In this document: piece after piece, positions 1 to 14,805 of the stretch
Position numbering within the stretch: the first letter of the stretch is position 1
Layout: each line of letters starts with the position of its first letter
NCBI GenBank assembly: GCA_016202645.1
Contig: JACQOF010000003.1
Location: forward strand, 32,243 to 96,242
From: a bacterium
GTDB lineage: Bacteria; Lindowbacteria; 2-12-FULL-62-27
Reading direction: 5' to 3'
DNA length: 64,000 nt
The notes under the pieces: model-generated
Seen by the model: the letters and a program-made list of their open reading frames with translations, nothing else
Database searches by the model: none
What the model was told of the DNA's origin: nothing
Position numbers and translations under genes: made by a program

Positions 1-906
1 GAGCGTTTTGCCGGCTTCGAAATTGGAAAATTTAAACAGGAAAGAAATCACGCCGGCCAAGGGAGGAAAATCTTTGGCGTTCACAAACAGGCGTTCCACC
101 GCTTCGGCCTCCGGATATCCGAATCCGGTCACGACGTTGTACCCGCGATTTTCGAGACCCGCGATCAGGGTGTCTTCAAGCTGCGTCTGTCCGTTGTAAT
201 AGAACGACCGAAACGCAAGCAGACCGGCCCAGGGCGCGCCCTCCCGGTAATATCCGTTCTTCCGGTACCAGACTGCGTAACTGTCGAACGTCTCGAACAC
301 TTCTCCGCCACTGGGATGAGGGTGGTAGTATCCGAATTCCAGCGGCGGCCGCGGCGGCTGAACCTTCAGATCGTGATACCCGAACTGCGTTTTCAGGATC
401 ATCCGGAGCATGTTCATGCGGTTGACATGGCCGTCGAACTGCCAGTACGTCCTGACCTGATCGTCGTACCAGAGGCCGATGGAGGCATATTCGTCGTCGA
501 GCCCGGCCGTCTGGCCGACCGCGTAAATTTTTGCGCCGCGCCGTTTAGCCGCGCGAAGCGGCGCCGACGGAAATCCGTCCTGCACGTCCGTTGCGATGCG
601 GATGGTGTGAACGTCAAAAAAAATCAGGTCGGCCCGATCAAACTCGTTCTCGTCGTAAATTTCCAAATCAATCAAATCGGCCTTGTTCATCATGGAAATC
701 CGGACGCTGTCCCGGAGGTCGGGGTGAGCCTGGTAAAAGGCCCTAGTCATGGAGGCGATGTCCGTGGAAACATAATTCCCGGCGACAAACAGAACATTGA
801 CGTGCCGGCCATGGTGGCCTTCGTGCGCCTCGGACAGCTGGAAAGGCAATAAGAAATAGGCGATGGGCAATAGGACGGAGAGAACCTGCCGCCGGAGCGC
901 AGTCAT
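1..906 (-). CDS. CobN/HmuS-like metallo-tetrapyrrole chelatase, N-terminal part (runs off window)
   Basis: The frame opens at the ATG at 906 and stays open to base 1, giving about 302 N-terminal residues of a protein whose family usually exceeds 1200. The start overlaps the stop of the upstream DUF2149 gene (ATGA). The protein begins with a signal-peptide-like segment (residues 1-26), after which the mature end would be His-rich (HEGHHGRH). The following sequence (VLFVAGNYVSTDIASM..., IFFDVHTIRIATD, KIYAVGQTAGLDDEYAS, 'YYHP' and a FRSFYYNGQ motif) resembles the N-terminal region of CobN/ChlH-type chelatases. Family knowledge: CobN inserts cobalt in B12 synthesis, but copies beside DUF2149, MotA and DUF2162 genes and a TonB receptor belong to the HmuS type, linked to haem de-metallation. 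The exported location and neighbours favour HmuS over a cobalt-inserting CobN; the catalytic C-terminus is not visible. Confidence 0.8.
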   Translation of the reverse strand, partial: MTALRRQVLSVLLPIAYFLLPFQLSEAHEGHHGRHVNVLFVAGNYVSTDIASMTRAFYQAHPDLRDSVRISMMNKADLIDLEIYDENEFDRADLIFFDVHTIRIATDVQDGFPSAPLRAAKRRGAKIYAVGQTAGLDDEYASIGLWYDDQVRTYWQFDGHVNRMNMLRMILKTQFGYHDLKVQPPRPPLEFGYYHPHPSGGEVFETFDSYAVWYRKNGYYREGAPWAGLLAFRSFYYNGQTQLEDTLIAGLENRGYNVVTGFGYPEAEAVERLFVNAKDFPPLAGVISFLFKFSNFEAGKTL

Positions 907-1253
907 TTTTGCCCCTCCGGAACATAAATCACACGGCCGTCCGCCAGTTTATAGGCGACACCAAGCCGGAGGCCCTGGCCCTGAAGAGACTTGTCGGTCA
1001 CCTTCTGAATTTTGACTTCCTTGCCTTTCTTCACGATCACCTCAAGATTCCCCCGGGCGTCCTGTTTGGTGATCGTGACTTCCGTCTCGGGCGACAGAAG
1101 ATCCATCAGCCGGTAGGCTGACACGAGGGCAAACATGAGTCCGACCGCGAGGACCGTGGCCACGTCAAACAGATTGGCGACCATATCAAGCGGATTGTCA
1201 TCGGCAACGTCTTCGGCGCCCGCCACGCGCCTTCGACCCAGAAATTTCATCAT
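903..1253 (-). CDS. DUF2149 membrane protein (HmuT-like)
   Basis: A 116-aa protein with one clear membrane segment (about residues 30-50, VATVLAVGLMFALVSAYRLM) followed by a small beta-rich domain containing 'EVIVKKGKEVKIQKV' and ending 'GVAYKLADGRVIYVPEG', typical of DUF2149. I chose the ATG at 1253 (MMKFLG...) because it overlaps the stop of the upstream MotA/TolQ gene by four bases (ATGA), matching the other junctions of this operon; a longer frame starting further upstream would run deep into that gene. Its stop overlaps the start of the CobN-like gene. DUF2149 proteins of this layout resemble ExbD (one membrane segment plus periplasmic domain), so with the MotA/TolQ neighbour it may form an energising pair dedicated to the chelatase. 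That role is inferred. Confidence 0.82.
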   Translation of the reverse strand: MMKFLGRRRVAGAEDVADDNPLDMVANLFDVATVLAVGLMFALVSAYRLMDLLSPETEVTITKQDARGNLEVIVKKGKEVKIQKVTDKSLQGQGLRLGVAYKLADGRVIYVPEGQK

Positions 1254-1855
1254 CGCCCGCCGGGTTTTCCCGCCGCAGCCAGTTCGGCGAACAATTCCAT
1301 GGTCCGGCGGTCCTGCGACGTCCATCGGGCCTTGTACTGGGACAACACATAGGCGACGCCCGCGATGAAGAGTCCGACGACGGTCGTGGTAAACGCGATG
1401 ATCAACGCATTGGCCATCTTGTCCATTTCGCCTTCCGCCAAGGCCGCCAATGCCTGGCCCATCGGAATGAGCGTGCCCATGAGCCCGAGCATGGGACTGA
1501 TCCGGACCAGGCGCCGGTGCCGGGCCAGCTCCCAGTTCAGCGCCTCTTCGCGCTCCTGCAGACGGTAGGCAATCTGAATTTCCGCCGAAACGGATGCCGG
1601 GAGATTCTGGATTGATTGCAAAAACCGCCGGACCGCGGGAGACAACGCGGAGAGATCCGCGCCAGTTGAGAGGAACGCGGCGGCCTCGGCCGGCTCGGGG
1701 ATGTTGACCGAGCGGCGTTTTAATCCTTCCGCCAATATCTCACCCATCCGAAAAATGATCACGCCAAACAGGGCGATCAGAATCGCCATGACCGGATAGA
1801 GGAGGGCCTCGGAAATCACATACAGAGCGGACTGCAAAAGGGCCATGAGGTTCAT
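1250..1855 (-). CDS. MotA/TolQ/ExbB-type proton channel protein (HmuU-like)
   Basis: A 201-aa protein with three membrane segments: one near the N-terminus (about 15-35), and two in the second half bounded by 'SPMLGLMGTLIPMG' and 'ALIIAFTTTVVGLFIAGVAYVL', the signature pair of the MotA/TolQ/ExbB channel family. Length fits the family. It is a second copy within the same operon (ExbB is at 10879-11517), so two energy-coupling units are present: one for the outer-membrane receptor and one next to the chelatase. It lies 12 nt after the DUF2162 gene and overlaps the DUF2149 gene by four bases. Coupling of proton flow to the chelatase or to tetrapyrrole movement is inferred from gene order. Confidence 0.9.
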   Translation of the reverse strand: MNLMALLQSALYVISEALLYPVMAILIALFGVIIFRMGEILAEGLKRRSVNIPEPAEAAAFLSTGADLSALSPAVRRFLQSIQNLPASVSAEIQIAYRLQEREEALNWELARHRRLVRISPMLGLMGTLIPMGQALAALAEGEMDKMANALIIAFTTTVVGLFIAGVAYVLSQYKARWTSQDRRTMELFAELAAAGKPGGR

Positions 1856-1867
1856 GGAATGTCCGTG

Positions 1868-2587
1868 TCAGCCGGCCGAAGCCCGACGATGTTTCCGAAA
1901 TCCGGCCCAAAGACCCAGTCCAAAGAGGGCGGCGGCCGGTGCCGCCACCCGGATCAGCTCCCAACCGCTGACGCGGGATCCGGAATTGAGCAGTTCGGAC
2001 AGCGCATAAATCTCTGACGCTTTGGCATACGCCGGCGCCACGGCCAGCGAAAGCAGAAAGTAGGCGGAAACCAACAGACACACAAGTCCCAGCGAATCGG
2101 CGCCCAATCGAAGCCGCGAGCTGCCGAGATAGACCAAGCCAGACAGAACAAAAAACACAATGCCCAGGAGGCCGGCCAGCCGCACGGGTGACAGCGCCGA
2201 CACAAACGCGGCCATCATGACCGACAGCAGAAGTGAGGACACGCAGACGGGGCACGGGGTCACGACCAGCCACGCCGCTCCTTTTTTCAGGCCCCCTTCG
2301 GAAGACCGGGTCCTTAGAAGGCTCCATCCCCAGACGCCCATGCCCAGCGCCATTAATATATGGAGAGAGACGCCGTTTTGAAGCAGGGGATAAACCCAGG
2401 ACTGGACATGCCGGGTCTCCATCGCGCGTCCGGCGACGGCGGCGGCCACAAACACCGCCAGATACAGACCCGCGAGAGCCGTCAATTCCTTCGGCCCAAA
2501 TTTCCCGGCCGCCGCGCCAACCCCGGCCTTCACGGCGAAAAATCCAACGCTAAGACTTACGCCGATCAGAAAAAGTGTTTCATTCAT
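1868..2587 (-). CDS. DUF2162 family polytopic membrane protein (HmuV-like)
   Basis: A 239-aa protein almost entirely made of hydrophobic segments (about seven), opening MNETLFLIGVSLSVGFFAVKAGVG and carrying a conserved 'VTPCPVCVSSLL' Cys-Pro-Cys motif in mid-protein, characteristic of DUF2162 predicted transporters. It sits 8 nt after the PepSY gene and 12 nt before the MotA/TolQ-type gene, in the DUF2162-MotA-DUF2149-CobN order seen in hmu-type haem utilisation loci. The paired cysteines could bind a metal or a haem-like ligand. It could transport the released metal or the de-metallated ring across the inner membrane; no direct evidence for either is in the sequence. Confidence 0.82.
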   Translation of the reverse strand: MNETLFLIGVSLSVGFFAVKAGVGAAAGKFGPKELTALAGLYLAVFVAAAVAGRAMETRHVQSWVYPLLQNGVSLHILMALGMGVWGWSLLRTRSSEGGLKKGAAWLVVTPCPVCVSSLLLSVMMAAFVSALSPVRLAGLLGIVFFVLSGLVYLGSSRLRLGADSLGLVCLLVSAYFLLSLAVAPAYAKASEIYALSELLNSGSRVSGWELIRVAAPAAALFGLGLWAGFRKHRRASAG

Positions 2588-2595
2588 TGGAATCC

Positions 2596-4173
2596 CTATC
2601 CTCTGGGAACCATGCGTTGCCTGCCGCCGACCCCGGAAGGTTCAGCCGCCTCAACGCCGTTCGTTTTTTTCCGCCTGAAATAGGGGAAATACAGCAACGT
2701 GCCGGCCACAACCGCCAAAAACGTCAAAATTCCGGAAATGATGATTCCAGGATTGCCGATGCGGCTCCGATTCACATACGAGAACACGTGAACTTCGTAG
2801 AACGAATAGAACAAACTATTGTGGATGTTGCGGCGCGCCAGAATCTGCCCGGTCACAGGTGAAATATAAATTCGGGTCCGCTTCCAGTTCGTAAAATTCA
2901 CCCGGTAGACCGGCAATTCCCCGAAGTAATCATAGCCCTTCTGATACTGCCCTGTGACCCACTCAACGTCCCGAACATCTCCCGGTCCGTCGAAATCCCG
3001 TTGCGCGATGACCCGCGCGTCGTCCTCCGTCAATCGCTGTAACCTGCGGCCCGTCTCCGCGCTGAAGATGTACGGATCCGAATCACCCCGGATGCGAACC
3101 CTATACACGGGCCGAGCTTCCAGTCCGTGGCCGTGCAAAACAACGTCCTCAATTCGTGGTGCATCCAGCGCCGCCGCTGATTGCCGCAAAAGTTCCGGCA
3201 CTTGCCAGGGCATGATGCGCACCGCCGCGGTCGAGAGGGGCGGCAAGGGCGTTCGTATCCGGTGGACGATTTCATCCGGAGGCGGATCGGACTTTAGCAT
3301 GCGGCTTTCGGCCACGCCACCCATGTTGCGGTTGGTGATCAGCGTAAATGCGATGCCGCCGACGATCCAGATCAGGACCTGGGCGGCCACCGCCCAGCCA
3401 AGCCAGACATGCGTTTTTCTCCAGATTGAATTCGCCTCCGCGGATTTCGAAAGATACGAACGCCAGAGAAACATGCCGGCGAGGACGGACACCAGCGACA
3501 GGACACTGAAAAACAAAACGCCCGGGTTGAATTGGAGTTCGGGATTGACCCAGGCGAAAATATGGAGGTTCCAAATCAGCGAGAAGGCGCTCATGTAGAC
3601 GTTCCGCCGGGAGATGATTTTCCCGGTGTACGGCGAAATGTACAGGCGCGTCTTTTTTGGGTTTGAAAAATTGACCCGATACACGGGCAGGTCCAGTCCG
3701 TAATCGCGCCCCTTCTGATGCCGGCGATAAATCCACTCGACGCTGGTCACACCGCCTTCATCCGTATAATCCAGCCGGGCGATTTCGGCCGCCTCGGTTT
3801 CAGAAAACCGGGAGATCACACGTTCGGACGCGGCGTCGATCAATGCGGGCGTGTCGCTTCGCGCAAAGCGGACCAGGTAGACCGAGCGGCCGCTTAGGGG
3901 ATGATTGAAAAATTGGATGTCTCGAATTTCTCCGGAAACGCCGGAGTCCGTTCCCAGGATTGAAGGGACACGGGAGGGATCCAGCCGGGCCGACTCGAAC
4001 GAAACCGGCGGCGATTCAAATCCGCGGCTTTCATACTGGCCGTTCATCTCATCCCGCGGGAGGAGCGCGAATCCCACGCCGGTGACAATCCAGATGACCA
4101 CCGGGATCAACACGACCAAGCCCAGCCAATAATGGATCTTCCGCCAATTGGCTTTGAGCGGCACCGGACTCAA
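2596..4173 (-). CDS. PepSY-associated membrane protein with two tandem copies
   Basis: A 525-aa protein consisting of two clearly homologous halves. Each half opens with a membrane segment after 'WRK(I/T)H(Y/V)WLG', carries a periplasmic PepSY-like region ending in '(L)PVYRVNF(S/T)N..K(K/R)TR(L/I)YISP(Y/V)TG', then a His-containing segment ('NLHIFAWVN' and 'EVHVFSYVN') and a closing membrane helix. Four or more membrane segments result. PepSY membrane proteins in iron/haem uptake loci are often ferric-chelate or flavin-linked reductases; the paired membrane histidines (HYWLG, LHIF / HVWLG, VHVF) would suit haem binding. Its stop lies 8 nt before DUF2162, and its start overlaps the end of the upstream permease gene by four bases. 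A transmembrane redox role that supports the chelatase is inferred. Confidence 0.85.
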   Translation of the reverse strand: MSPVPLKANWRKIHYWLGLVVLIPVVIWIVTGVGFALLPRDEMNGQYESRGFESPPVSFESARLDPSRVPSILGTDSGVSGEIRDIQFFNHPLSGRSVYLVRFARSDTPALIDAASERVISRFSETEAAEIARLDYTDEGGVTSVEWIYRRHQKGRDYGLDLPVYRVNFSNPKKTRLYISPYTGKIISRRNVYMSAFSLIWNLHIFAWVNPELQFNPGVLFFSVLSLVSVLAGMFLWRSYLSKSAEANSIWRKTHVWLGWAVAAQVLIWIVGGIAFTLITNRNMGGVAESRMLKSDPPPDEIVHRIRTPLPPLSTAAVRIMPWQVPELLRQSAAALDAPRIEDVVLHGHGLEARPVYRVRIRGDSDPYIFSAETGRRLQRLTEDDARVIAQRDFDGPGDVRDVEWVTGQYQKGYDYFGELPVYRVNFTNWKRTRIYISPVTGQILARRNIHNSLFYSFYEVHVFSYVNRSRIGNPGIIISGILTFLAVVAGTLLYFPYFRRKKTNGVEAAEPSGVGGRQRMVPRG

Positions 4174-5600
4174 GCCTCCAGCCCCATCACCTTCAAACGG
4201 CGCATGCCCCCCAAGGCAAATCCGAGAGCGAGGATGGACAGGAGGGCCGCGCCGGGCAAGATACGTCTGCCCATGGACAAGACAGATTCTTCTCGGAACT
4301 CAAACGCCGGCAGAGCGTCCAAGTCTGACACCGTCACCAGTTCCTGTTTAAAAATCTTCGGTTCGAGAAGCTCCTTCATCCGCGCCTGATAGACCAGGGC
4401 CTGGTCTTCAAACCTGTTGTGCCTGGCGATACCGGTTCCGGCGATGTCGTTTAATCCTTCCTGCAGAACCAGGGCCGGCGAAAGAAAGGCCATGCGGAGC
4501 TGGAGGGTTTGCCGACGGCGCAATTCGGACTCATGGGCGTCGACCAGCGTGTTGAGCTCACGGTCGGTCAGTTTCTGCACGGCGAAATATTTATTGAAAA
4601 ACTGTTTGAAGTCCGGAATGTCATGGCCTGGCTCAAGGTAGAACCGTTCCAGAACCTTGTCGCCGCCAGCGTTGATCCGATTGCCGACATCCCGTGCCGC
4701 GACGGCAAGATTCACCCGGGAGGGCGGAGGCGCCAGTATCCCCAGAAGCGTCCCCATCACCGATGGCAGAACCAAGACCAACGTCAACCAAGCTCCGGCC
4801 AGCACCGTCGCATTGTACACCGCCGACCGGCCCAGGCCGTTGACCCAAATGCTGAGCGACATCCAAAACGCCAGATAGGCCAGAAGCAGAAACAGGGTCA
4901 GTCCAAACTCGCCGGGGAATTTGGCCACGGAAACGCCCGCGAGGAAAAGGCCGATCCCCAAAGACGACGCCGATACGCCCCAGAGGAGGAGCAATCGCGC
5001 CGCCGCTCTCGACAGCGCCAGATGCGCCAGGCCCGTTGTCTGGGACAAAACCAAGGGCAAAATTCCCCGGTCCCGGTCGCCGGCGACGATCCCAAAACCC
5101 AGCGCGAGGGCCAGGAGGGGGAGAAGGTAGACCATCACAAAAGCGGCGTCAAACCCTCCCACCTGGAGATTCAAGGGATTTTCGATGTCCTGGGAAAAAT
5201 AATTCCGGCCCTCCCAGAATTGGGCCCGGTTCAACAGGTTCAGCCGCGCCACTCCGTTCAACAAGTCGCTCTGGCCGATGGACAACGGCGCAAGGGGCGC
5301 CGGCGGAAGAACCGCCTGCCGGCTGCCCGAATACAACGAAAAAACTGACGTGGTGCGGGGGTCGTCCTCTCCCGGAGGCAATTTCTCCCGGCCGGTTTCC
5401 AGGGATTCAAACCGCGCGCGAGTGTTGGCAAATTTTTCCGCGTCTTTCGCCATCAGAAACCGGCCTTGTTTGTCCAAACGTTCCGATGCGGTCTGTCCTC
5501 CAAACACGCCCACAATCAGGAGGACAGCGGCCGCGGCGAGAGCCGGAATCGTGGCGGCTTCTCGCCATGTCCGTTTCAGTTCAATCCGAAAGAGCCGCAT
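4170..5600 (-). CDS. ABC-2 type permease, DUF3526 family (second of pair)
   Basis: A 476-aa integral membrane protein: an N-terminal membrane segment after 'LFRIELKRTWREA', a large extracytoplasmic loop (about residues 35-155), a block of five or six membrane segments ('VMVYLLPLLALALGFGIVAGDRDRG' is the typical DUF3526/ABC-2 stretch), a further cytoplasmic or periplasmic domain and one last membrane helix. It is homologous to the preceding permease at 5611-7026 and the two together with the ATPase at 7028-7729 form one ABC transporter. It lies 10 nt after its partner and overlaps the PepSY gene by four bases. DUF3526 transporters are frequent beside TonB-dependent receptors; their substrate is not established. 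Confidence 0.85.
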   Translation of the reverse strand: MRLFRIELKRTWREAATIPALAAAAVLLIVGVFGGQTASERLDKQGRFLMAKDAEKFANTRARFESLETGREKLPPGEDDPRTTSVFSLYSGSRQAVLPPAPLAPLSIGQSDLLNGVARLNLLNRAQFWEGRNYFSQDIENPLNLQVGGFDAAFVMVYLLPLLALALGFGIVAGDRDRGILPLVLSQTTGLAHLALSRAAARLLLLWGVSASSLGIGLFLAGVSVAKFPGEFGLTLFLLLAYLAFWMSLSIWVNGLGRSAVYNATVLAGAWLTLVLVLPSVMGTLLGILAPPPSRVNLAVAARDVGNRINAGGDKVLERFYLEPGHDIPDFKQFFNKYFAVQKLTDRELNTLVDAHESELRRRQTLQLRMAFLSPALVLQEGLNDIAGTGIARHNRFEDQALVYQARMKELLEPKIFKQELVTVSDLDALPAFEFREESVLSMGRRILPGAALLSILALGFALGGMRRLKVMGLEA

Positions 5601-5610
5601 CGGTTGGCGA

Positions 5611-7026
5611 TCAGTCGACGTTCAAACGGCGCGCGGAGTTTCGCATGAACCAGAGGCCCGCCATCAGCCATGCCGAGAGCATCGCCAGGGACCTCCAAGC
5701 CTGGCCGATCGCATGATCGACCCCGAACGATGGATACTCAAACGCCGGCATGGACGCCCAGAGATCCGGCCCGCCGCGGTAATCCGAGTCCCATTTTTCC
5801 TGGCGTTTGGCGTTCCGGAGGACATCATCATTCAAGCGCCGAATAAAAGCGCGGCGATACTGTTCCGCCTTGAAGGCGAAATCCCGATGGACCGACAGAT
5901 CCGTGCCGGCCAACGCCATGGACGCCAGGCGCAAAGGCTGGAGGGGTGATGCCAGACCCGTAACCAAGTGCAGATCCCTCTGTCTTTCGAGAATGCCGAA
6001 GAGTTCCGAAAATCTCCTGTCAAAAATCTGGTCTCCGTGCCGTTCTCCCTCGATGAGACGAATTCCGCTGAAGGACACCGGCAACTCCTCGATCGTCTTG
6101 GCCCCGTAGAGCCGGAGTGCGTTTGCCTTGTCCAATTTCATTGAATCCGGCCTCTGGGTTTCTTTTGAGATCTGATCGGAAAATTCCGCGGCGAGGGGCG
6201 TTGGGGAGACCGCCTTGGACAGCGCCACGGCGAATCGCGGCACAAGAACGCAGGCGGCGAGCCATATTCCCAGCAACGCGAGCAGGGTGTTCCGTGGTTT
6301 GGTCATCCTCGCCGAAACTCCCAAAACCACGGCAATCCAGAAAGCGATATAGAACGCGTAGGCGAGACTGAGCCACCCCAGACGCAGGAGAACGTCCATA
6401 CGGGTGCCAGGCTCGGCCAGAAACAGGGACGCGGCGATGGCCGCGGTCCAGGGCAGAATCGTCCAGACCAGCAACGCGCGAAGGAATCCCATCCATTTCC
6501 CCCACGCCAGAATTTCCGGAGAGACTCCCTGACTCAACGCCAATTTCAGCACGCGGCTCTCCCGTTCGCCAGAGAACGACGCGTAAGAAAGGAAGATAAT
6601 CAGCAGCGGCGCGATGACCTGCAAAATAAACGCGGGACTCAATTCTCCGAACCTCTGCATCACGCCGGCGTCCATGGCCGGGCGGTATTTGAAGTCATTC
6701 TGTTTGTGAGCTTCGAGCCACACGGTGGCCCCGACCCAAGGCTCGATGCCGCGGTCAAAGACGGCCAGGGCCTGCGCGGGCTTGAAGGCGTAGACTCCGT
6801 AATGAGCGGCGCTGTGCGGGTTCTTGATACCCTGTTCCAGAAACTGCCGGCGATTGTCGGCCCATGCCGCGGAGCGTTCCTGGCCCAGCCGGAGGGCATA
6901 CCGGCCGCCGGCGAAGGCCGACGCGAGGGTCAGGATTAGGAAGACCCACCCCAGAACGCGGGCGCGCCCGTCTCTTCTTAACGATTCGCCCTCGCGGGCG
7001 GCGATGACGCGCAGGATTACCGGCAC
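5611..7026 (-). CDS. ABC-2 type permease, DUF3526 family (first of pair)
   Basis: A 471-aa membrane protein with the same plan as its neighbour: N-terminal membrane helix (about 25-45), long soluble loop (50-150), then the block starting 'ILQVIAPLLIIFLSYASFSGERESRVLKLALSQG', which is the DUF3526/ABC-2 core, several more helices, a soluble region (about 260-410), and a C-terminal helix near 'AWRSLAMLSAWLMAGLWFM'. It starts one nucleotide after the ATPase gene ends and is separated from the second permease by 10 nt, so the three genes are co-translated. The two permeases probably form a heterodimer driven by the single ATPase. Confidence 0.85.
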   Translation of the reverse strand: MPVILRVIAAREGESLRRDGRARVLGWVFLILTLASAFAGGRYALRLGQERSAAWADNRRQFLEQGIKNPHSAAHYGVYAFKPAQALAVFDRGIEPWVGATVWLEAHKQNDFKYRPAMDAGVMQRFGELSPAFILQVIAPLLIIFLSYASFSGERESRVLKLALSQGVSPEILAWGKWMGFLRALLVWTILPWTAAIAASLFLAEPGTRMDVLLRLGWLSLAYAFYIAFWIAVVLGVSARMTKPRNTLLALLGIWLAACVLVPRFAVALSKAVSPTPLAAEFSDQISKETQRPDSMKLDKANALRLYGAKTIEELPVSFSGIRLIEGERHGDQIFDRRFSELFGILERQRDLHLVTGLASPLQPLRLASMALAGTDLSVHRDFAFKAEQYRRAFIRRLNDDVLRNAKRQEKWDSDYRGGPDLWASMPAFEYPSFGVDHAIGQAWRSLAMLSAWLMAGLWFMRNSARRLNVD

Positions 7027-7027
7027 T

Positions 7028-7729
7028 TCAGTTCGCCATGTGATCGAGATAGATTTTTTCCAATTCGGAATGCCCGAGTTTCTCGGTATCGAGGACGGTG
7101 TTCATCTTTCCCTCCCGCATGATTCCCACGCGGTGTCCGCTTTCCTTGGCCCTGAAGAGGTCGTGCGTGGCCATCAGGACCGCGATTCCCTGATCGCCGA
7201 GTTTCCGGAGCAGGAGGCTAAACTCGTTGCTCGCCTTGGGATCAAGGCCGGATGTGGGCTCGTCCAACATGAGCGCCCGCGCGCGCTTGCTGAGCGCCAG
7301 CGCGATCCCGACTTTCTGACGCATGCCTTTGCTGTACGTGCCGACGGGCCGCCCGTGTGCCTCGTCCTGCAGTCCCGCGTCCCGCAGAAAAGCGCTTAAG
7401 TCACCCGGGGCGTAGTCGAATCCGGCCAAGGCGCTGAAGTATCCAAGATTTTCCGTGCCGGTCATCGAGGAATAAAAATTCACCTGTTCCGGAATATAGG
7501 CGATGAGCCGCCGCGCCTCCAGAGGGTTCTTTGCCACCTCGCGCCCGTCGACGAAGGCCTGGCCGCCGGTGGGTTCGACAAAATGGAGGAACAGATGGAT
7601 GGTCGTGGTTTTCCCGGCGCCGTTTGCGCCCAGGAGACAGAACACTTCCCCTTCCTTGACCTTGAGATCCAATCCATCCAACGCGAGCACGTCGCCGTAC
7701 CGTTTTGTTAGGCTTTTAGCTTCGAGCAT
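7028..7729 (-). CDS. ABC transporter ATP-binding protein
   Basis: A 233-aa nucleotide-binding subunit. Visible motifs in order: Walker A 'GANGAGKTTT' (about 34-43), Q-loop in 'PEQVNFYSS', a degenerate signature 'YSKGMRQKV', Walker B 'ALMLDEPTSGLD', and the H-loop His in 'ATHDLF'. Length and motif spacing are normal. It sits between the TonB-dependent receptor (9 nt away) and the two DUF3526 permeases (1 nt), so it almost certainly powers them. The class (ABC-2 permease with a separate ATPase) is usually an exporter or a system acting on a periplasmic substrate; no periplasmic binding protein is encoded here, so a classical importer is less likely. Confidence 0.93.
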   Translation of the reverse strand: MLEAKSLTKRYGDVLALDGLDLKVKEGEVFCLLGANGAGKTTTIHLFLHFVEPTGGQAFVDGREVAKNPLEARRLIAYIPEQVNFYSSMTGTENLGYFSALAGFDYAPGDLSAFLRDAGLQDEAHGRPVGTYSKGMRQKVGIALALSKRARALMLDEPTSGLDPKASNEFSLLLRKLGDQGIAVLMATHDLFRAKESGHRVGIMREGKMNTVLDTEKLGHSELEKIYLDHMAN

Positions 7730-7738
7730 GCGAATTCC

Positions 7739-9676
7739 TCATTTCTTCCACGTGTAGGTCAGCCAATGGCTCCGCTGCTGATGGGCAGCCCCGGTGGATT
7801 CGACGTTGACTTCATCAAACAGGTTTTCCGTCCGGAAACTCCATTCGCCGGCGCGACCGCCGAAGGGCCGGTAGTTGAAAATGAGATCGGTGATCGTCGC
7901 CTGGGCCAGTTTGTCCGTCGACGTGTTCGAATTCCAGCGTTTCCCGATGAACCGGACGACGGAAACCACGTCCAAGGCGTCGCTGATGGCGTAGCGCACC
8001 GTGGCGGTGGCTTTCTTGTCCGCGGCTTTGTCAAATTCTCCCTGAACCACCGTTCCCGTATCCTCAATGTTAGACTGCGTGAACGTCGCGGTGAGCCCGA
8101 CCGAAAGGCGGCGGGTCAGATCGTAATTTCCCTCTATATCAAACCCTTGGGTCACGGCCCTGTTCGCGTTCAAATTCGGTCCTGTGGGGTTTCCCGTTGC
8201 GAACTGCCGGACGATGAGCTGGTTGTACCGGGTCTTGAAGTACGTGACGTCCCCGCGAAATTTGTTGTCCGGGGAGGAATACTCAACCCCGACGTCCCAT
8301 CCCTTTGAGAATTCCGGCTTCAGGCGGGAGTTTCCGGATACGCCCGGGAAAATGAGATCAAAAATCGTGGGATCGCGGAATCCGGTTCCAAACGACCCGT
8401 GAAACCGCGTCTGCTCGTCGATTGGACGGGAAGCCGACGTCCGGAACGTCCGGGCCACCAACTTCGGCAAATAGGCGATTCCGCTGTCCGGCATAATGTG
8501 ATCTGTCCGGCCTCCGAGGGTCAGCGTCCACCCTTTCCAGTCCACCAAGTCCTGCATGTACATCGACCGTTTCACGATGGTCTGGGCGTAGGGCGTGGCT
8601 CGTTTGACGTCCTTGCCCACGTCGATCTCTCCCGCCCAGCCGAAAGTCAACGTGTGATCTTTGACGCGGTAGTTATTCTGGAAATCGATCGTGGACGTAT
8701 GGTTAATACGGGTGAGGTTGCTGGATCCTTTTGGGTTCCCGAAATCAGTATTTTCCAGTCTCTCCTCATAGTACCCATACATCATGGAATAATCCCAGCG
8801 GTCAGTGACCGCCCGGGAGAGCTTGATTGAGCTTGTGATCTGATCCATGTACGAAAAGATTTTCGTGGTGTCGGCGCCGCCGAAGATGTCGAGGCCCGCC
8901 ACCATGTTCACATAGGAGACGGACGCGTTCAGGTCATGATCGTAGAAAGGCAGGGGGTAGGAGACCGACGCCGACATGTTCTTGGTCAGGAACAAGTCAT
9001 TTTCCAGTCCCGAGCTGTCCGTATTCCCGGAATTCCCGGAGGACGAGTAGCCATCGCTGTTTTCATAGTAAGCGCTCAAGGTATATCTGGCTTCGCCGGC
9101 CGATCCCCGGAGCCCCAAGGAAGACCTCCGTGTCCTCCAACTACCCACTTCCATCATGGCATCCATCGAAGGTTTTACGGTCCCGCGTTTGGTGATGATA
9201 TTGATCACGCCGGACATTGCGTTGGATCCATAGAGCGTGCTCATGTTTCCGCGGACGATTTCAATCCGCTCGATATTCTCGACCGAAAAGGACGGTATCA
9301 TGGCGTCGCCGCCAAGAGCGCGGCGCCACGGCACGCCGTCGACGAGAGTCAGCACATGCTTTTGGTTGCCTCCCCGGAGACTAAAATTGGTCTGCGTGCC
9401 GGGACTGCCAAACCGGGTGACGTCGACGTACGCCGACCTGCGCAGGACGTCCTGAATCGACCTCGATTTTTGCATTTCAATATCCTTGGCCGTAATCACC
9501 GTCACCGCCGCGCCGACTTTGTCCCTGGACACCGGCACGCGGGACGCTGTAACGACAACTTCAGGCAGGCCATAGGCCTCCTCTTCGGGTTCGACTGCCC
9601 GACTTGCGGCCGGGAAGAGCACCGCGCACCCCAGCGCCACGAGGGGCGCAATCCATTTTGCTCTAAAAAAGTTCAT
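7739..9676 (-). CDS. TonB-dependent outer-membrane receptor
   Basis: A 645-aa outer-membrane receptor. Residues 1-27 form a signal peptide (PAASRA cleavage). A TonB-box-like 'PEVVVTASR' follows at about 38-46, then the plug domain ('QDVLRRSAYVDV', 'LRGGNQKHVLTLVDGVP', 'IERIEIVRGNMSTLYGSNAMSGVINIITK') and a beta-barrel ending in 'HWLTYTWKK'. The frame is open further upstream, but the ATG at 9676 is preferred: it gives a clean signal peptide and overlaps the tonB stop by four bases (ATGA). BtuB/HmuR-like receptors look like this; the co-transcribed CobN-like, DUF2149 and DUF2162 genes suggest haem or another metallo-tetrapyrrole as cargo. The barrel sequence alone does not identify the ligand. 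Confidence 0.93.
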   Translation of the reverse strand: MNFFRAKWIAPLVALGCAVLFPAASRAVEPEEEAYGLPEVVVTASRVPVSRDKVGAAVTVITAKDIEMQKSRSIQDVLRRSAYVDVTRFGSPGTQTNFSLRGGNQKHVLTLVDGVPWRRALGGDAMIPSFSVENIERIEIVRGNMSTLYGSNAMSGVINIITKRGTVKPSMDAMMEVGSWRTRRSSLGLRGSAGEARYTLSAYYENSDGYSSSGNSGNTDSSGLENDLFLTKNMSASVSYPLPFYDHDLNASVSYVNMVAGLDIFGGADTTKIFSYMDQITSSIKLSRAVTDRWDYSMMYGYYEERLENTDFGNPKGSSNLTRINHTSTIDFQNNYRVKDHTLTFGWAGEIDVGKDVKRATPYAQTIVKRSMYMQDLVDWKGWTLTLGGRTDHIMPDSGIAYLPKLVARTFRTSASRPIDEQTRFHGSFGTGFRDPTIFDLIFPGVSGNSRLKPEFSKGWDVGVEYSSPDNKFRGDVTYFKTRYNQLIVRQFATGNPTGPNLNANRAVTQGFDIEGNYDLTRRLSVGLTATFTQSNIEDTGTVVQGEFDKAADKKATATVRYAISDALDVVSVVRFIGKRWNSNTSTDKLAQATITDLIFNYRPFGGRAGEWSFRTENLFDEVNVESTGAAHQQRSHWLTYTWKK

Positions 9677-10455
9677 TCGACGTTCACTCCTTTGTTCAAA
9701 CTGAATCGGATGGGTACCAAGCATTCGCTGGTTATCTCGACCGGCCCTCTCCGGGCCGGGATAAATTTCCATTGTTTCACGGCGCGCTGCGCCGCGAGGT
9801 CCAAAATCCGGTAACCGCTGCTGACATCGACGGTCACAGCCATCGCCTCTCCTTTTTCCGAAACCGCAACCCGCAAGATCACCCGGCCCTCGTACCATGA
9901 CCGCTGGGCGGCCAGGGGGTACTCGGGTTTGGGATTGTTCAAATAGGCGGGCGCGGACGAAACGTGTATTTCTTGGGCCTCACTCAACTGCATCCCCGTT
10001 GCCGGCGCCGGATCCGATACGGCCGTCGGCGCATCTTCGGTCATTTTTTCCTGGACGGGTTCCGTCGCCGGTTCCCGGATCGGTTCCTGCACAGGTTCCG
10101 GGGGGATTTGTTCGACTTCCATCACCAACATTGCCGGGACTTCCGGGACCGGCGGTTCGGCCGGCGGGATTTCCACCGGGTTGACGGCCTCCTCCACGAC
10201 GGCCGGAAGAGGCTCCGGCCTGGGTTTGGGAACGGGCTTTTTCCGCGGGAGCACAACCGGCGTGGCGACAAGTTGGAGGGACATGCGTCCAACGGCGCTT
10301 TCCATCGGAATTTGGACAGGTGAAAACGGCCAGAACCAGAACAACAAAAAGGCGTGGAACCCCGCGGAGATCACCGTCGCCGTCCACATGGCGCCGGGCG
10401 GCTGATACAAAGGGACGGCGCGGCCGCGTCCGTTGGCATGCAGAACTTCGATCAT
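9673..10455 (-). CDS. tonB: TonB energy-transducing protein
   Basis: A 260-aa protein with the TonB layout: a short cytoplasmic N-terminus, one membrane anchor (about 28-46, 'GFHAFLLFWFWPF'), a long Pro/Glu-rich periplasmic spacer (about 75-165, with repeated EP, PVQEP and PKP motifs) and a globular C-terminal domain from 'PEYPLAAQRSWYEGRVILRVAVSEKG' to the end. It transmits the proton-motive force gathered by ExbB/ExbD to the receptor. It starts one nucleotide after exbD ends and overlaps the receptor gene, so this TonB is dedicated to the locus. Confidence 0.93.
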   Translation of the reverse strand: MIEVLHANGRGRAVPLYQPPGAMWTATVISAGFHAFLLFWFWPFSPVQIPMESAVGRMSLQLVATPVVLPRKKPVPKPRPEPLPAVVEEAVNPVEIPPAEPPVPEVPAMLVMEVEQIPPEPVQEPIREPATEPVQEKMTEDAPTAVSDPAPATGMQLSEAQEIHVSSAPAYLNNPKPEYPLAAQRSWYEGRVILRVAVSEKGEAMAVTVDVSSGYRILDLAAQRAVKQWKFIPARRGPVEITSECLVPIRFSLNKGVNVE

Positions 10456-10456
10456 G

Positions 10457-10882
10457 TCAGCGTTTCACCGTCGTTTCCAGGGAAATGCGGACCAGCCCCG
10501 CCGTCCGGCAGGCGTCCAGAACTTCAATGACAATCCCGTAGTCCGCCGCCCGGTCGGCGTCAACGTAGACTTCCTCCGTATTCGGCTCGGCCGACCGATA
10601 AGCGGTGATGCGCCGCAGGAGGTCATTTTTGTCGACCCGGACCCGGTTCATATAAATTTCCCCGGCGGACGTGACCGTAAACGTCAGGAGGTCCTTTTTT
10701 TCCTTGATGGACGTCAGAGCCTGCGGCAGTTCCACTTTGATCCCGCGGTGGACCGTCATCGTGAGCATGCTGTAGATCAGCACCGTCAGAATCAGAAAGA
10801 TGGTGTCGATCATCGGGATCATGTCGATGCGCGCTTCGCGGGCCTCCAAGTGCGCTCCAAAGAACCTCCGCCGGATTTTCAC
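10457..10882 (-). CDS. exbD: ExbD/TolR family biopolymer transport protein
   Basis: A 141-aa protein with one membrane segment (about 22-45) containing the family's essential Asp ('RIDMIPMIDTIFLIL') followed by a periplasmic domain with 'NRVRVDKNDLLRRI' and 'VYVDADRAADYGIVIEVLDACRTAG', the classical ExbD pattern. The start is a GTG at 10882 overlapping the exbB stop (GTGA). It works with ExbB and TonB. Confidence 0.93.
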   Translation of the reverse strand: MKIRRRFFGAHLEAREARIDMIPMIDTIFLILTVLIYSMLTMTVHRGIKVELPQALTSIKEKKDLLTFTVTSAGEIYMNRVRVDKNDLLRRITAYRSAEPNTEEVYVDADRAADYGIVIEVLDACRTAGLVRISLETTVKR

Positions 10883-11517
10883 GCCGCTTCCGTCTTTCCA
10901 ATGCGGGTTCGATTCTCCTCCGACTCATGGATGGCGATTTCCATGTTCGACAAGGCGGATTCCATGCGGTGCCGGGCGCGCGTAACCTGGGACTGAAAGA
11001 AGTTGTAGAAGATGAGGGTTGGCATGGCGATGGCAAGGCCGAAAACAGTCGTGATGAGGGCCTGGGAAACGCCCGACGCCACCTGGCTGACGTTGTCGAC
11101 GTTGCCGCCGAGGGCGTCGAAGGCGAAAACGATTCCGACAACGGTGCCGAATATTCCCAGGAGCGGCGAGAGGGAGATGATGGTTTCGAAGACCGTCAAA
11201 TATTTTTTCATGAGGATATACCGTTCCGAGGACGCCTGATCGAGCGCCACAAAGAGGCTCGTGTGCGGCCCGCCGGCCCGGAGGCCTTCGTGGAACATGG
11301 AAAGCACGTAGTCCCTCCCCCCGGCACAGACCTTGAGCGCCTCCTCCCGCCGGCCGTCTCCGACCAGTTGGAGCGCGCGGCTGACCGCATCGGGCTGTTC
11401 CCGGCGCCAGATGCGGATCCAGAACCAGATCCGTTCCAGGGCGAAGGCCAGCGACAGGAGCGAACACATGAGCAGGGGCCACATCACCGGCCCCCCTCTT
11501 TGGAAATACTCGATCAT
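10879..11517 (-). CDS. exbB: ExbB/TolQ proton channel protein, first gene of the operon
   Basis: A 212-aa protein with three membrane segments: one near residues 10-30, and two in 'TIISLSPLLGIFGTVVGIVFAFDAL' and 'SQALITTVFGLAIAMPTLIFYNFF', the ExbB/TolQ signature. The frame is open further upstream to 11568, but the ATG at 11517 (MIEYFQRGG) is preferred because an AGGCGG-like ribosome-binding site lies just upstream and the extra residues are not family-like. It is the promoter-proximal gene of the 12-gene operon that ends with the CobN-like chelatase, and overlaps exbD by four bases. Confidence 0.92.
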   Translation of the reverse strand: MIEYFQRGGPVMWPLLMCSLLSLAFALERIWFWIRIWRREQPDAVSRALQLVGDGRREEALKVCAGGRDYVLSMFHEGLRAGGPHTSLFVALDQASSERYILMKKYLTVFETIISLSPLLGIFGTVVGIVFAFDALGGNVDNVSQVASGVSQALITTVFGLAIAMPTLIFYNFFQSQVTRARHRMESALSNMEIAIHESEENRTRIGKTEAA

Positions 11518-11549
11518 CCTCTTCCGCCTTTCGTCAAACAGTAAATTGC

Positions 11550-11594
11550 AATATACTCGCATTTTCATCGCCCGGTGTCAACTAAAATGCGAGT
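11550..11594 (-). promoter_or_regulatory. Likely operon promoter with perfect 11-bp inverted repeat (operator candidate)
   Basis: On the minus strand a consensus -35 TTGACA lies at 11581-11576. A TATATT (11555-11550, spacing 20) or GAGTAT (11558-11553, spacing 17) could serve as -10. A perfect inverted repeat, ACTCGCATTTT (11555-11565) and AAAATGCGAGT (11584-11594), flanks the -35 box with an 18-nt centre. Such a placement is typical of a repressor operator; the binding protein is not identified. It would control the whole exbB-to-chelatase operon. Confidence 0.55.
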
Positions 11595-11712
11595 TCTTTG
11601 CAAGAGCCGCAATCTCGCAATAATATCGGCGCCCGGATAGGCTTCGAATTGGGGTTGGTGGGTTATTTGCGGGTGTATTTGGAGACGTCGCCGACCATTT
11701 TGGCGGTCTGCG

Positions 11713-12516
11713 CTACACCAGCAGGGCGAGTCCCAAGGCGGCGCAGTAGAGGGCGAAGTAGTGGAATTTGGCGGACTGAAGGATTTTGAGCAGGACCCGG
11801 ATGGCCAGGACGCCGACCGCGCCCGCCACCGCCGCGGAACCCGCGTAGAGCGCGAGATTCACGCCCGATCCGAGTTCCCCGGCGATGTCGCGGGCCTCCA
11901 GGAGTGTCGCTCCGAGGATGGCCGGGATGAAGAGCAGGAAAGAAAACCTTGCTGCCAAGTCCGGGCGGAGGCCGAGGATCAGCGCGGCGGAAATCGTCGC
12001 GCCCGACCGGGACACGCCTGGAAAGATTGCAGCGCCTTGTAGAAGGCCGATGAATACCGCATCCCAAATTCCCATTTGAGCGAGGGACCGGTCCCGGGTT
12101 TTCCGAAAGACCGTCGCACCCATGATGAGTCCTCCCGCTAGAAATCCGAAGGCCACCGCGCGCAGGTCGGAAAACGCCGCTTCGACCGCCGATTTCAAAC
12201 CGAAGCCGATTGCCGCCGTGGGGACGCAGGCGATCAGGATGAGCAGAAGCAATTTTCCCGGCGAGTCGGAGCGCCAGTCCGCTTTCAGCCACCGGCCGGG
12301 GTGGACCAGTTCGCCGGCCATGTCCGCAACGTCCCGCCGGTAGACCGCGAGAACCGCAACCAGCGTTCCGAGATGGAGAACGATGTCGAACGCGAGAGGC
12401 GGGTTGGAGAATCCGAGCCACACCTGCGCGACGGCCAGGTGCCCGGATGAACTCACGGGCAGGAATTCGGTGACGCCCTGGATGACAGCCAGGACCAAGG
12501 CGATCCAGAGTGTCAT
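11713..12516 (-). CDS. uppP: Undecaprenyl-diphosphatase UppP (BacA)
   Basis: A 267-aa polytopic membrane enzyme that dephosphorylates undecaprenyl pyrophosphate, recycling the lipid carrier for peptidoglycan and surface polysaccharides. The two family signatures are present: 'QGVTEFLPVSSSGHL' at residues 13-27 and 'FPGVSRSGATI' in the second half, with about eight membrane segments and normal length. The ATG at 12516 lies 16 nt downstream of the O-methyltransferase stop, so the two are probably co-transcribed; a GAGG lies about 12 nt before the start. About 195 nt separate it from exbB. Confidence 0.95.
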   Translation of the reverse strand: MTLWIALVLAVIQGVTEFLPVSSSGHLAVAQVWLGFSNPPLAFDIVLHLGTLVAVLAVYRRDVADMAGELVHPGRWLKADWRSDSPGKLLLLILIACVPTAAIGFGLKSAVEAAFSDLRAVAFGFLAGGLIMGATVFRKTRDRSLAQMGIWDAVFIGLLQGAAIFPGVSRSGATISAALILGLRPDLAARFSFLLFIPAILGATLLEARDIAGELGSGVNLALYAGSAAVAGAVGVLAIRVLLKILQSAKFHYFALYCAALGLALLV

Positions 12517-12532
12517 GAGATTTGGATCATCC

Positions 12533-13189
12533 TCAGGATGTCTTGAGACTCACGGCAACGCCATCCCGGACCGGGACGATGGTCGTGACGAATCGCTTGT
12601 CGGCCAGAATCAGGTCGGTGTATCGTTTGACGCCCAGGGTACTCTTCTCCGTGTTCTTCATGTCGATGACCCTTCCGTCCCAGAGGAGATTGTCCACGAT
12701 AACCAGCGCGCCCGGGTTGAGACGGTCTTTGAAGGCTTCATATCCCGCCGGGTATTGCTCCTTGTCGATGTCCATGAAGAGGATGTCCGGCGTCACGCCG
12801 CTTTTTTTGAAAGCCTCGACCGCATCGCCTTCGTGAAACCGGACCCGGTCGATCACGCCCGCGCACGTCAGGTACTCCCGAGCTTTGGTTCTGTTTTCTC
12901 CGGAAAGGTCGGTGTGATGGACCACGCCTTCCGGCCCCATCGCCCGCGCAAACCAGAGGGTCGAATACCCGTACCCGGATCCGAGTTCAAAGACCGTTTT
13001 GGCCCTGGACAAAAGCGTGAGCACCTGCAGGAGCCGCCCGACCTGTGGTCCGACGATCGGAAAATCCTTTTCGATCCCGACCGCCTCCATTTCAAGCAGC
13101 ACCTCGTCGTCCTTCGAGACCGCAAGCTGTGTCAGGTACGCGTCAATGTAGGGGTTGATGATGTCCATCCGGATCATCCCATCGGCCAT
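12533..13189 (-). CDS. SAM-dependent O-methyltransferase (CCoAOMT-like family)
   Basis: A 218-aa class I methyltransferase. The SAM-binding motif is 'VFELGSGYGYSTLWFA' (about 66-81), followed by 'HTDLSGENR', the metal/substrate region 'ILFMDIDKEQYPAGYE' and 'VIVDNLLWDGRV', matching the caffeoyl-CoA/catechol O-methyltransferase-like family (DNxLWxG motif). Such proteins methylate small catechol-like or other hydroxylated substrates with a divalent metal; the substrate here cannot be told. It precedes uppP by 16 nt on the same strand and is divergent from the FG-GAP gene. Confidence 0.87.
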   Translation of the reverse strand: MADGMIRMDIINPYIDAYLTQLAVSKDDEVLLEMEAVGIEKDFPIVGPQVGRLLQVLTLLSRAKTVFELGSGYGYSTLWFARAMGPEGVVHHTDLSGENRTKAREYLTCAGVIDRVRFHEGDAVEAFKKSGVTPDILFMDIDKEQYPAGYEAFKDRLNPGALVIVDNLLWDGRVIDMKNTEKSTLGVKRYTDLILADKRFVTTIVPVRDGVAVSLKTS

Positions 13190-13241
13190 GGGCTATTGCC
13201 TTAGCAGGAAACCGTTCAAAATTCCATCATAACCCCGGATT

Positions 13242-13269
13242 TTGAAAGTTCATCAACCTTTGGTATAGT
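13242..13269 (+). promoter_or_regulatory. Sigma-70-like promoter of the FG-GAP gene (leaderless)
   Basis: TTGAAA (13242-13247), 16-nt spacer, TATAGT (13264-13269). Transcription would begin about 13276, which is the A of the start codon itself, and no Shine-Dalgarno sequence is present. Confidence 0.65.
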
Positions 13270-13275
13270 GCGGGC

Positions 13276-14805
13276 ATGCGGGTTGCAGGGGGGTTTTCGG
13301 CGCTGTGCCTCTCCATATTATATATAGGCCTTCCGGGGGCCTCGGACGCCTCCCAGTTCAGGTTGGTGAATGAGGAACTCGGGATTGTGGATCACCACAT
13401 GGGGATGAGTGTGACGTGGGGCGACTACGACGGGAACGGGTACCCGGAATTCTTCATCAACGGATACCGCCGCCATCCCGAGATTCTCTACCGGAACCTT
13501 GGGCCTGACGGGTTCCGCCGCGCCGACACCGAGGCGGGGGTGTTCGGGTGGAAGGACAGAAACAGGGCGCCTGAATCGGGGTTCGGATCGGGCTGGGCCG
13601 ACTACGACAACGACGGAGACTTGGATCTTCTGGTGGTCAACACGGACGGCCAGGTCAGTTTCCTGTACCGTAGTGACGGTCCGAACGAATCCGGCATGAT
13701 GACGTTCAAGGACGTTGCCGCCGCTTCGGGCTTTGGCGCTCCAAGCAACGCCGTCGGCTGTGCGTGGGCCGATTACGACGGCGACGGATACTTGGACGTT
13801 TTCCTCAGCAACGGCGCGGGCCTGCCGGATCTCCTCTACCGCAATCTCGGCAACGGGACTTTTCAAAACGTTTCCAAACGTGCCGGCATCGCCGACACCG
13901 CGAGCGGCGCGGGCGTGGCCTGGGGCGACTACGACAACGACGGCGATCTGGATCTTTTCGTGAATAATTCCTCCACCCATCCCAAATTTCTCTACCGCAA
14001 CAACGGCAACGGCACGTTCACAGACGTCGCTTTCGAAGCGGGCGTTGCCCAGCCTTCCGACGGCCAGGGCTGTGCCTGGTCCGACCACGACAATGACGGC
14101 GATCTCGACCTCTACGTCTCCAACTACGGCGGGGCCCAGGATTTTTTCTACAGGAACAACGGCGACGGAATGTTCACCCAGACCGCCGAAAAGGTGGGGC
14201 TGAAAAGTTCCGCCAAAAGCCGCGGCGCCGCGTGGGGTGACATCGACAACGACGGAGATTTTGATCTTCTGGTCGGCGTCGACTGGGGCATGGCCGACAT
14301 GCTCTTCGTGAATTACGACGGCGGAAAGTTCGTCGACCTCGGCGTCCCGCTCGGCATGGTCGGCGGATGGACCATCAGCACGAGTTTTGCGGACTATGAT
14401 ATGGATGGCCGCATGGACATTTATGTGTCGACCCAGGTGAGTCACGTCGATTTGATCTACCACAACGAGGACACCCGGGGACTGAACTGGATCAAGGTCA
14501 ATCCCCTGACGGCCGGGCCGCGGGATCTGCCGAAGGAACAGAAGACGGACCCGCCGATGCGGCTGGCGATCGGCGCGTGGGTGGAAGTGGACATGGACGG
14601 CGGCGCGGACTTCGCCAAAGGCCCCGGCCGATACGCCGCTCAGATCGTCGGCGCGGGCGACGGGTATGCTTCGAATGCCCTCCCGGTTCATTTCGGGGTT
14701 CGCCGCGCCAAAACGGTGGATGTGCGCGTGCGGTACCCGACGGGTCAAGTCATCACGCAAAAAAATATCCCGGTGAATCAGGTCCTGGTCGTCAAGGATC
14801 GTTAG
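13276..14805 (+). CDS. Secreted FG-GAP/VCBS repeat protein with ASPIC/UnbV C-terminus
   Basis: A 509-aa exported protein: signal peptide at residues 1-25, then about seven repeats each containing a calcium-binding-type loop (for example 'DYDGNGYPEF', 'DYDNDGDLDL', 'DYDGDGYLDV', 'DHDNDGDLDL', 'DIDNDGDFDL', 'DYDMDGRMDI'), predicted to close into an integrin-like beta-propeller, followed by an ASPIC/UnbV-like domain (from about residue 415, 'LNWIKVNPL', to 'VDVRVRYPTGQV'). These proteins are surface or periplasmic and probably mediate protein or polysaccharide contact; the actual role is unknown. The start coincides with the predicted transcription start. hemB follows after 3 nt. Confidence 0.88.
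   Translation: MRVAGGFSALCLSILYIGLPGASDASQFRLVNEELGIVDHHMGMSVTWGDYDGNGYPEFFINGYRRHPEILYRNLGPDGFRRADTEAGVFGWKDRNRAPESGFGSGWADYDNDGDLDLLVVNTDGQVSFLYRSDGPNESGMMTFKDVAAASGFGAPSNAVGCAWADYDGDGYLDVFLSNGAGLPDLLYRNLGNGTFQNVSKRAGIADTASGAGVAWGDYDNDGDLDLFVNNSSTHPKFLYRNNGNGTFTDVAFEAGVAQPSDGQGCAWSDHDNDGDLDLYVSNYGGAQDFFYRNNGDGMFTQTAEKVGLKSSAKSRGAAWGDIDNDGDFDLLVGVDWGMADMLFVNYDGGKFVDLGVPLGMVGGWTISTSFADYDMDGRMDIYVSTQVSHVDLIYHNEDTRGLNWIKVNPLTAGPRDLPKEQKTDPPMRLAIGAWVEVDMDGGADFAKGPGRYAAQIVGAGDGYASNALPVHFGVRRAKTVDVRVRYPTGQVITQKNIPVNQVLVVKDR

Follow-up and report, generated by a model that had tools for sequence, protein, structure and literature searches.

A twelve-gene operon in a Lindowbacteria genome, possibly for corrinoid uptake and metal removal outside the cytoplasm

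The operon and its genes

We describe an operon at the left end of a 64,000-nucleotide stretch of bacterial DNA (the window: contig JACQOF010000003.1, positions 32,243 to 96,242 of the forward strand, assembly GCA_016202645.1, lineage Lindowbacteria) that may serve to acquire corrinoids (vitamin-B12-type compounds) and to remove their metal. It consists of twelve genes, all on the minus strand, with eleven junctions that range from an overlap of 4 nucleotides to a gap of 12; this bears out a reading made from the letters alone (henceforth the sequence-only reading), which had placed here a twelve-gene operon with two energy-coupling units. The first unit opens the operon: exbB (10879..11517), encoding the ExbB-type proton channel of the TonB system, exbD (10457..10882) and tonB (9673..10455; TonB_C, 1.8e-18). 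The best start of exbB is an ATG at 11517, behind the Shine-Dalgarno-like GGAAGAGG, in agreement with the gene end implied earlier. Both exbB and exbD were recognised by pairwise matches to the exbB (127–150 bits) and exbD of relatives at anammox loci, the remaining genes by Pfam.

Next come a TonB-dependent receptor (7739..9676; Plug and TonB_dep_Rec), nearest to receptors of loci with cobalamin riboswitches, an ATP-binding cassette (ABC) ATPase (7028..7729; ABC_tran, 2.5e-26), two DUF3526 ABC-2-type permeases (5611..7026 and 4170..5600; 2.6e-23 and 5.9e-23) and a PepSY_TM membrane protein with two PepSY repeats, a candidate periplasmic reductase (2596..4173; PepSY_TM, 6.4e-21, plus two PepSY matches). 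A DUF2162 membrane protein (1868..2587; 7.5e-36) precedes the second unit, a further MotA/TolQ/ExbB protein (1250..1855; MotA_ExbB, 2.3e-13) and a DUF2149 protein (903..1250; 1.8e-28). The last gene encodes a CobN-family protein, exported and membrane-anchored, of which the window holds the N-terminal part (1..906; CobN-Mg_chel, 1.3e-16 for this part). In one respect the sequence-only reading was wrong: the operon is not complete in the window, as cobN runs 3.1 kb further left.

The exported CobN-family protein

The full cobN-like gene (L003:15118-19149, ending at host contig C17:29117) encodes 1,343 residues, with a signal-like segment at the N-terminus (7–26) and a transmembrane segment at the C-terminus (1318–1337) by hydropathy; the exported layout claimed earlier thus holds for the whole protein. 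No other CobN/ChlH-family gene was found in the host genome (2.9-Mb assembly, 82% complete), and no AAA+/VWA partner genes (CobS/CobT, ChlI/D) are among the neighbours of cobN. The locus is not one of a cytoplasmic CobN set beside B12 genes: the protein is exported, and no B12 genes adjoin it. A gene for a COG0523-type GTP-binding protein lies on the opposite strand, 2 kb past the end of cobN (L003:11794-13095).

The sequence-only reading had likened the DUF2162/MotA/DUF2149/CobN module to HmuSTUV, and in kind the likeness is real. The HmuRSTUV system of gut bacteria (PMC12583661) also combines an exported, anchored CobN-family protein with MotA and DUF2149, HmuT standing where the window has its membrane protein, and the axial chelatase histidine of HmuS (His538, motif HFG(T/A)HG) is kept in the window protein as HTGTHG. 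This histidine is present in all but one (L056) of the 59 CobN-family proteins compared, which suggests metal chemistry. In contrast to HmuRSTUV, the window operon lacks HmuY and carries its own exbB-exbD-tonB set, and residues that define HmuS are missing: His1209 (the second axial histidine) and Glu1212 of the LSLDHxxEFMGG signature are Asp and Met (LDNDDFFMYAGG), and the site-1 haem ligands Met79 and His254 are replaced by His100 and Phe291. At the His1209 position the signature reads DNDDFF throughout the riboswitch group described below, FDSDDY in CobN from cob clusters and LSLDH in HmuS; a ChlH-like protein (L174) also has His there. As to the methionine-rich insertion of HmuS, the window protein has at most 7 Met per 50 residues (at 1079), but HmuS of Bacteroides finegoldii itself has only 6. 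A C-terminal C-C-x-x-T-C motif is present in the window clade.

With the aerobic cobaltochelatase CobNST and the Mg-chelatase ChlHID the protein shares the CobN/ChlH fold family and the HxGxHG motif, and with cob-cluster CobN the Asp signature, but it is exported and anchored, with MotA/DUF2149 in place of AAA+ partner genes. The BtuS family, named in PMC6460266 after Rodionov et al. 2003, is likewise a third type of CobN-like protein, exported and proposed for metallo-tetrapyrrole salvage; however, the Bacteroides BtuS1 and BtuS2 that have been studied affect haem iron use, and the window protein falls in another clade than the Bacteroidota HmuS compared here. In Azospirillum brasilense p4 (L160:4605-9336) a cobN-MotA-DUF2149 locus with a His-type signature (STDHPFEYLGG) lies near an iron ABC transporter and may be a haem-type member in Alphaproteobacteria.

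Relatives and cobalamin riboswitches

Relatives comprise 34 loci from a scan of named genomes, to which plasmid records added annotated cases, among them hmu operons with HmuY from Prevotella and Bacteroides finegoldii. The hosts of the scanned loci are anammox planctomycetes (Brocadia, Kuenenia, Scalindua, Anammoxibacter) and further Planctomycetota, as well as Acidobacteria and Gammaproteobacteria; the closest relative has ~50% identity. The core they have in common, MotA-DUF2149-CobN, is often joined by a receptor, exbB-exbD-tonB and either DUF2162 or a different small membrane protein. A cobalamin aptamer (Rfam RF00174) stands directly 5′ of the receptor, on the same strand, in L035, L036, L038, L039, L041, L042, L043, L045, L046, L048 and L063: all eleven anammox loci in which the receptor adjoins cobN have such a riboswitch before the receptor, often in tandem. 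Cobalamin riboswitches also precede the operons of L028, L030 and L031 and, in tandem, that of Trichlorobacter (L154), while in L056, L057 and L058 the receptor they precede is divergent; at several relative loci none was found. Tandem riboswitches before receptor genes are seen at L036:6728-7365, L043:7096-7806, L154:8014-8480 and elsewhere. Two further associations concern B12 and cobalt genes: on the Trichlorobacter lovleyi plasmid, genes for cobyric acid synthase, cobT and bzaF lie beside receptor-DUF2162-MotA-DUF2149-cobN-exbB-exbD-tonB, and in L029 CbiQ/CbiO adjoin cobN.

The tree of the 59 compared proteins makes the anammox clade the sister group of the window protein (support of 100 in the SH-like approximate likelihood-ratio test, SH-aLRT). 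The larger clade around it holds all cobalamin-riboswitch loci of the tree, while three HmuS-type proteins form a separate clade. The receptor tree agrees: the window receptor groups with anammox and with acidobacterial and gammaproteobacterial receptors (bootstrap 97, SH-aLRT 99), apart from HmuR and from DUF3526-associated receptors, its finer position being unsure because it forms a long branch. Among family models it scores best to TonB-B12 (208 bits; TonB-hemin 132), both under the curated cut-offs and 208 bits far below the 599.7 of the BtuB model (NCBIfam TIGR01779). Metallo-tetrapyrrole uptake, as first proposed, is supported: the receptor groups with B12-type receptors, which are tetrapyrrole receptors. 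Haem as the compound probably is not, since the CobN-family protein and the receptor alike fall with loci that have cobalamin riboswitches, neither groups with HmuS or HmuR, and the HmuS-defining residues are absent.

A possible motor for the chelatase

The full-length CobN-family proteins divide by their neighbours. Thirty-five of the 59 have N- and C-terminal hydrophobic segments and adjoin MotA or DUF2149; 14, cytoplasmic CobN/ChlH without such a pair of segments, adjoin AAA+ genes; and in no instance (0/59) do both kinds of neighbour occur together. One MotA-linked protein lacks the N-terminal segment, probably through a wrong start call, and nine further proteins have neither neighbour within reach. 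As the relatives were retrieved through their sequence similarity and have a common ancestry, these counts are not independent events.

The periplasm contains no ATP. Since class I chelatases require an ATP motor (PMC7689651), the work on an exported chelatase would have to come from elsewhere, and MotA/DUF2149 could supply it from protons. From these gene neighbourhoods we infer a proton-driven MotA/DUF2149 motor that replaces the ATP motor of the AAA+ partners. In the literature HmuU/HmuV are credited with energising the outer-membrane receptor (PMC10100974, PMC12583661); the separate ExbB-ExbD-TonB set that accompanies MotA/DUF2149 in the window, Trichlorobacter, Kuenenia and Anammoxibacter speaks against such a role in this group, and the pair probably serves the chelatase. 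The split between AAA+ (cytoplasmic) and MotA/DUF2149 (exported) chelatases offers a direct and testable answer to the question of the HmuU/HmuV role.

DUF2149 has a single transmembrane helix with a near-invariant Asp29, and extracytoplasmic strands. Its structure model (predicted template-modelling score, pTM, 0.29) likewise shows one helix and strands and is too weak for a fold search, and its profile found nothing credible in the PDB; window MotA gave a weak match to flagellar MotA there. DUF2162 is polytopic (model pTM 0.66; predicted local distance difference test, pLDDT, 77), with His76 and a P-C-P-x-C motif (111–115) that are invariant in eight aligned relatives and lost in HmuT. A fold assignment for DUF2162 was rejected: the best Foldseek E value was 0.57 and the best VIA-align Z score, 8.2 to transporters, is within the range of helical bundles.

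The added cassette

The window operon differs from its riboswitch-linked kin in an ABC-DUF3526-DUF3526-PepSY cassette. At the other CobN-family loci examined neither DUF3526 nor a strong PepSY match occurs within 6.5 kb of cobN (the Aureibacter DUF3526 pair is ~8 kb away), which upholds the earlier impression of an unusual gene combination; our literature search found no publication combining DUF3526 and PepSY, and phmmer searches with the window proteins gave no link of CobN, receptor or PepSY to the DUF3526 relatives of distant genomes (L099-L109). The PepSY protein does contain the suspected duplication, in the form of an internal repeat (37% over 246 residues, E 2e-54). The protein has four transmembrane segments and histidines near the membrane faces, and its two repeats, segments and histidine pairs recall FoxB-type PepSY_TM reductases, which reduce metal complexes on the periplasmic side (PMC13038864, PMC13001220); the simplest guess at its role is therefore a reduction step that precedes release of the metal. 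In contrast to FoxB it is linked to a CobN operon and has no significant match to solved chains (against PDB sequences, only chance matches to HslV), so that kinship with FoxB follows from Pfam and layout.

The cassette occupies a slot, between receptor and DUF2162, that holds CbiZ in L028 and a BtuF-CbiZ fusion in L030; these CbiZ and BtuF-like/CbiZ proteins (L028:6953-7801, L030:4307-6283) are apparently exported. In other relatives the interval from receptor to cobN holds DUF4430, or a set made up of DUF4198, a NapH-like protein and a dehydratase. DUF4430, which presumably recalls the beta domain of transcobalamin, is a small exported protein at L036:9576-10010 and other anammox loci. In Anammoxibacter (L048:4137-13909, from riboswitch and receptor to cobN) a DUF4198-like protein accompanies a NapH-like iron-sulphur membrane protein and a protein of the 2-hydroxyglutaryl-CoA dehydratase D (HGD-D) family, perhaps a strong reductant for corrinoids.

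The cassette could instead be an unrelated siderophore module, co-transcribed by chance, an explanation that concerns the cassette only and is compatible with any reading of the remainder. Plasmid DUF3526 pairs do adjoin TonB receptors without CobN, and reduction of ferrisiderophores is a known activity of PepSY_TM proteins (PMC13038864, PMC13001220). We nonetheless think it rather unlikely, given the position of the cassette in a slot where relatives have CbiZ, a reductase set or DUF4430, its junctions of -4 to +10 nucleotides and a window receptor that is not of the DUF3526-associated type.

Cobalt and B12 metabolism of the host

Contig C118 of the host carries cobU, cobT, cobS, cbiB, cbiP, cbiA, cbiC, cbiD and cbiE/T by reading, with CbiA, CbiP, CbiC and CbiD confirmed by Pfam, which indicates B12 synthesis by the cobalt-early route; a CbiM, CbiQ, CbiO importer is encoded on contig C102. 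Only one cobalamin riboswitch was found in the genome, ahead of a short gene of the CbiX type on contig C106 (L166:8034-8725). No BtuC-type permease was detected, only a weak partial FecCD match. Among 24 carrier genomes, eight have strong CbiA/CobQ without strong FecCD, a combination that fits cobalt salvage; eight have both and eight FecCD only.

A corrinoid reading of the operon

The substrate is, in our judgement, quite probably a corrinoid rather than haem, because of the CobN and receptor trees, the riboswitches of kin, the B12 genes of Trichlorobacter, the CbiZ/CbiQ/CbiO neighbours, the Asp signature and the B12 and cobalt genes of the host. If it is, we lean towards removal of its metal, by analogy with HmuS. 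Joined, these steps make the operon a system of TonB-dependent corrinoid acquisition with exported de-metallation for cobalt salvage, a reading from gene content and kinship that we prefer, though tentatively. ExbB-ExbD-TonB and the receptor would bring a cobalt corrinoid into the periplasm, where the anchored CobN-family enzyme, on the analogy of HmuS, would remove the metal from the ring; MotA and DUF2149 would act on it as a proton-driven motor in place of the AAA+ ATPase, as the mutually exclusive neighbours suggest. The PepSY protein may reduce the metal before it is set free, much as FoxB-type proteins reduce iron. Freed cobalt could enter through DUF2162 and/or CbiMQO and feed the cobalt-early synthesis of B12, and the ABC-2/DUF3526 pair might, speculatively, export or handle the stripped corrin or another complex. 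In its most specific form (a cobalt-corrinoid de-chelatase outside the cytoplasm, driven by the proton-motive force through a rotary-type MotA/DUF2149 motor, here with a PepSY reductase, that mines B12 and its relatives for cobalt) the proposal is doubtful.

Several observations weigh against this reading. The only demonstrated activity of an exported CobN-like protein is on haem (PMC12583661). An Rfam scan found no cobalamin riboswitch in the window, even at permissive thresholds on 9400-13400. The riboswitch-controlled receptors of Trichlorobacter and L028 score best to the haemin-receptor model, which makes receptor class a weak guide, the NCBIfam models separating haem from B12 unreliably. 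The eight FecCD-only carriers do not fit cobalt salvage, and related acidobacterial and gammaproteobacterial systems are mostly in genomes without corrin synthesis but with FecCD permeases, where stripping of cobalt would make little sense; nor is the lack of BtuC in the host proof, at 82% completeness. Comparison of the DUF2149 and ExbD profiles was not significant (hhalign probability 1%), although the sole, weak alignment pairs the transmembrane Asp of both. The roles given to the PepSY and ABC proteins draw on family knowledge only.

The operon might import corrinoids without de-metallation, the CobN-like protein being a large periplasmic protein that binds or loads corrinoids, and DUF2162 with MotA/DUF2149 a proton-driven route across the inner membrane in place of BtuCDF. 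This shares the riboswitch and receptor evidence, DUF2162 is polytopic, and the host and seven other corrin-making carriers have no strong FecCD/BtuC match. Set against it are the retention of the chelatase-superfamily histidine in all but L056, the presence of FecCD in several carriers and the precedent of HmuS, a de-chelatase (PMC12583661); we regard it as unlikely. Slightly less credible still is uptake and de-metallation of haem, the operon being a diverged HmuRSTUV to which reductase and ABC genes were added. The DUF2162/MotA/DUF2149/CobN module is common to the window and HmuRSTUV, HmuS is the closest solved structure (phmmer, E 1e-135), and a DUF3526 transporter can adjoin a haem operon: in Aureibacter pAT2 a real hmu operon, with HmuY, is followed by TonB-dependent receptor-DUF4374-ABC-DUF3526-DUF3526. 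The tree, receptor and riboswitch evidence opposes it, as do the absence of HmuY, the lack of conservation of Met79, His254, His1209 and Glu1212, and a receptor with no His between FRDP and SRLKPE.

It is very improbable that the system strips nickel, or some other metal, from a nickel tetrapyrrole or a chelate of another kind: the Runella slithyformis pRUNSL01 locus (L155:8287-16321; receptor, NicO/DsbD-like protein with the annotation 'urease accessory protein', MotA, DUF2149 and exported cobN among hyp and NiFe-hydrogenase genes) suggests a nickel version of the system, and DUF4198 genes lie beside the L028 and L048 systems, but Runella is outside the window's clade in the CobN tree, the closest kin of the window are under cobalamin riboswitches, and neither hydrogenase nor urease genes were recognised next to the operon of the window.

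Riboswitch-linked operons of this general kind are already known, and the window system is a variant of them. The Trichlorobacter lovleyi cluster (pSZ77/pGLOV01), with cobN-exbBD-tonB and without CobS/CobT partners, was reported in 2012 with its role unknown (Wagner et al., PMC3403914); it has the same receptor, DUF2162, MotA, DUF2149, cobN and exbB-exbD-tonB set and the same CobN clade. Cobalamin riboswitches before some hmu-like operons were reported in 2023 in a B. thetaiotaomicron paper (PMC10100974), and the hmu-like operons of Bacteroides fragilis that lack HmuY (PMC10100974) are of a related riboswitch-linked kind. The window operon differs in having neither riboswitch nor adjoining B12 genes and in its added cassette, functions being putative in all. 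We add to these findings a placement of the window system and describe its residue switch, its host context, the additional cassette and the split between two kinds of motor. Were the corrinoid and cobalt-salvage reading true, B12 would be not only a vitamin but also a source of cobalt, a point of interest for anammox bacteria and other members of shared microbial communities. We know of no bacterial enzyme that removes cobalt from B12-type rings, and our literature search found none described.

The region upstream of exbB

Some 195 nucleotides of non-coding DNA separate exbB from an undecaprenyl-phosphatase-like gene upstream on the same strand. Promoter and terminator scans returned chance numbers only. 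Within this region a perfect 11-bp inverted repeat, ACTCGCATTTT-N18-AAAATGCGAGT (11555..11594, minus strand; fold -22.7 kcal/mol, z -2.9), has no Rfam match; the exact element occurs once in the host genome and is a candidate operator or RNA hairpin.

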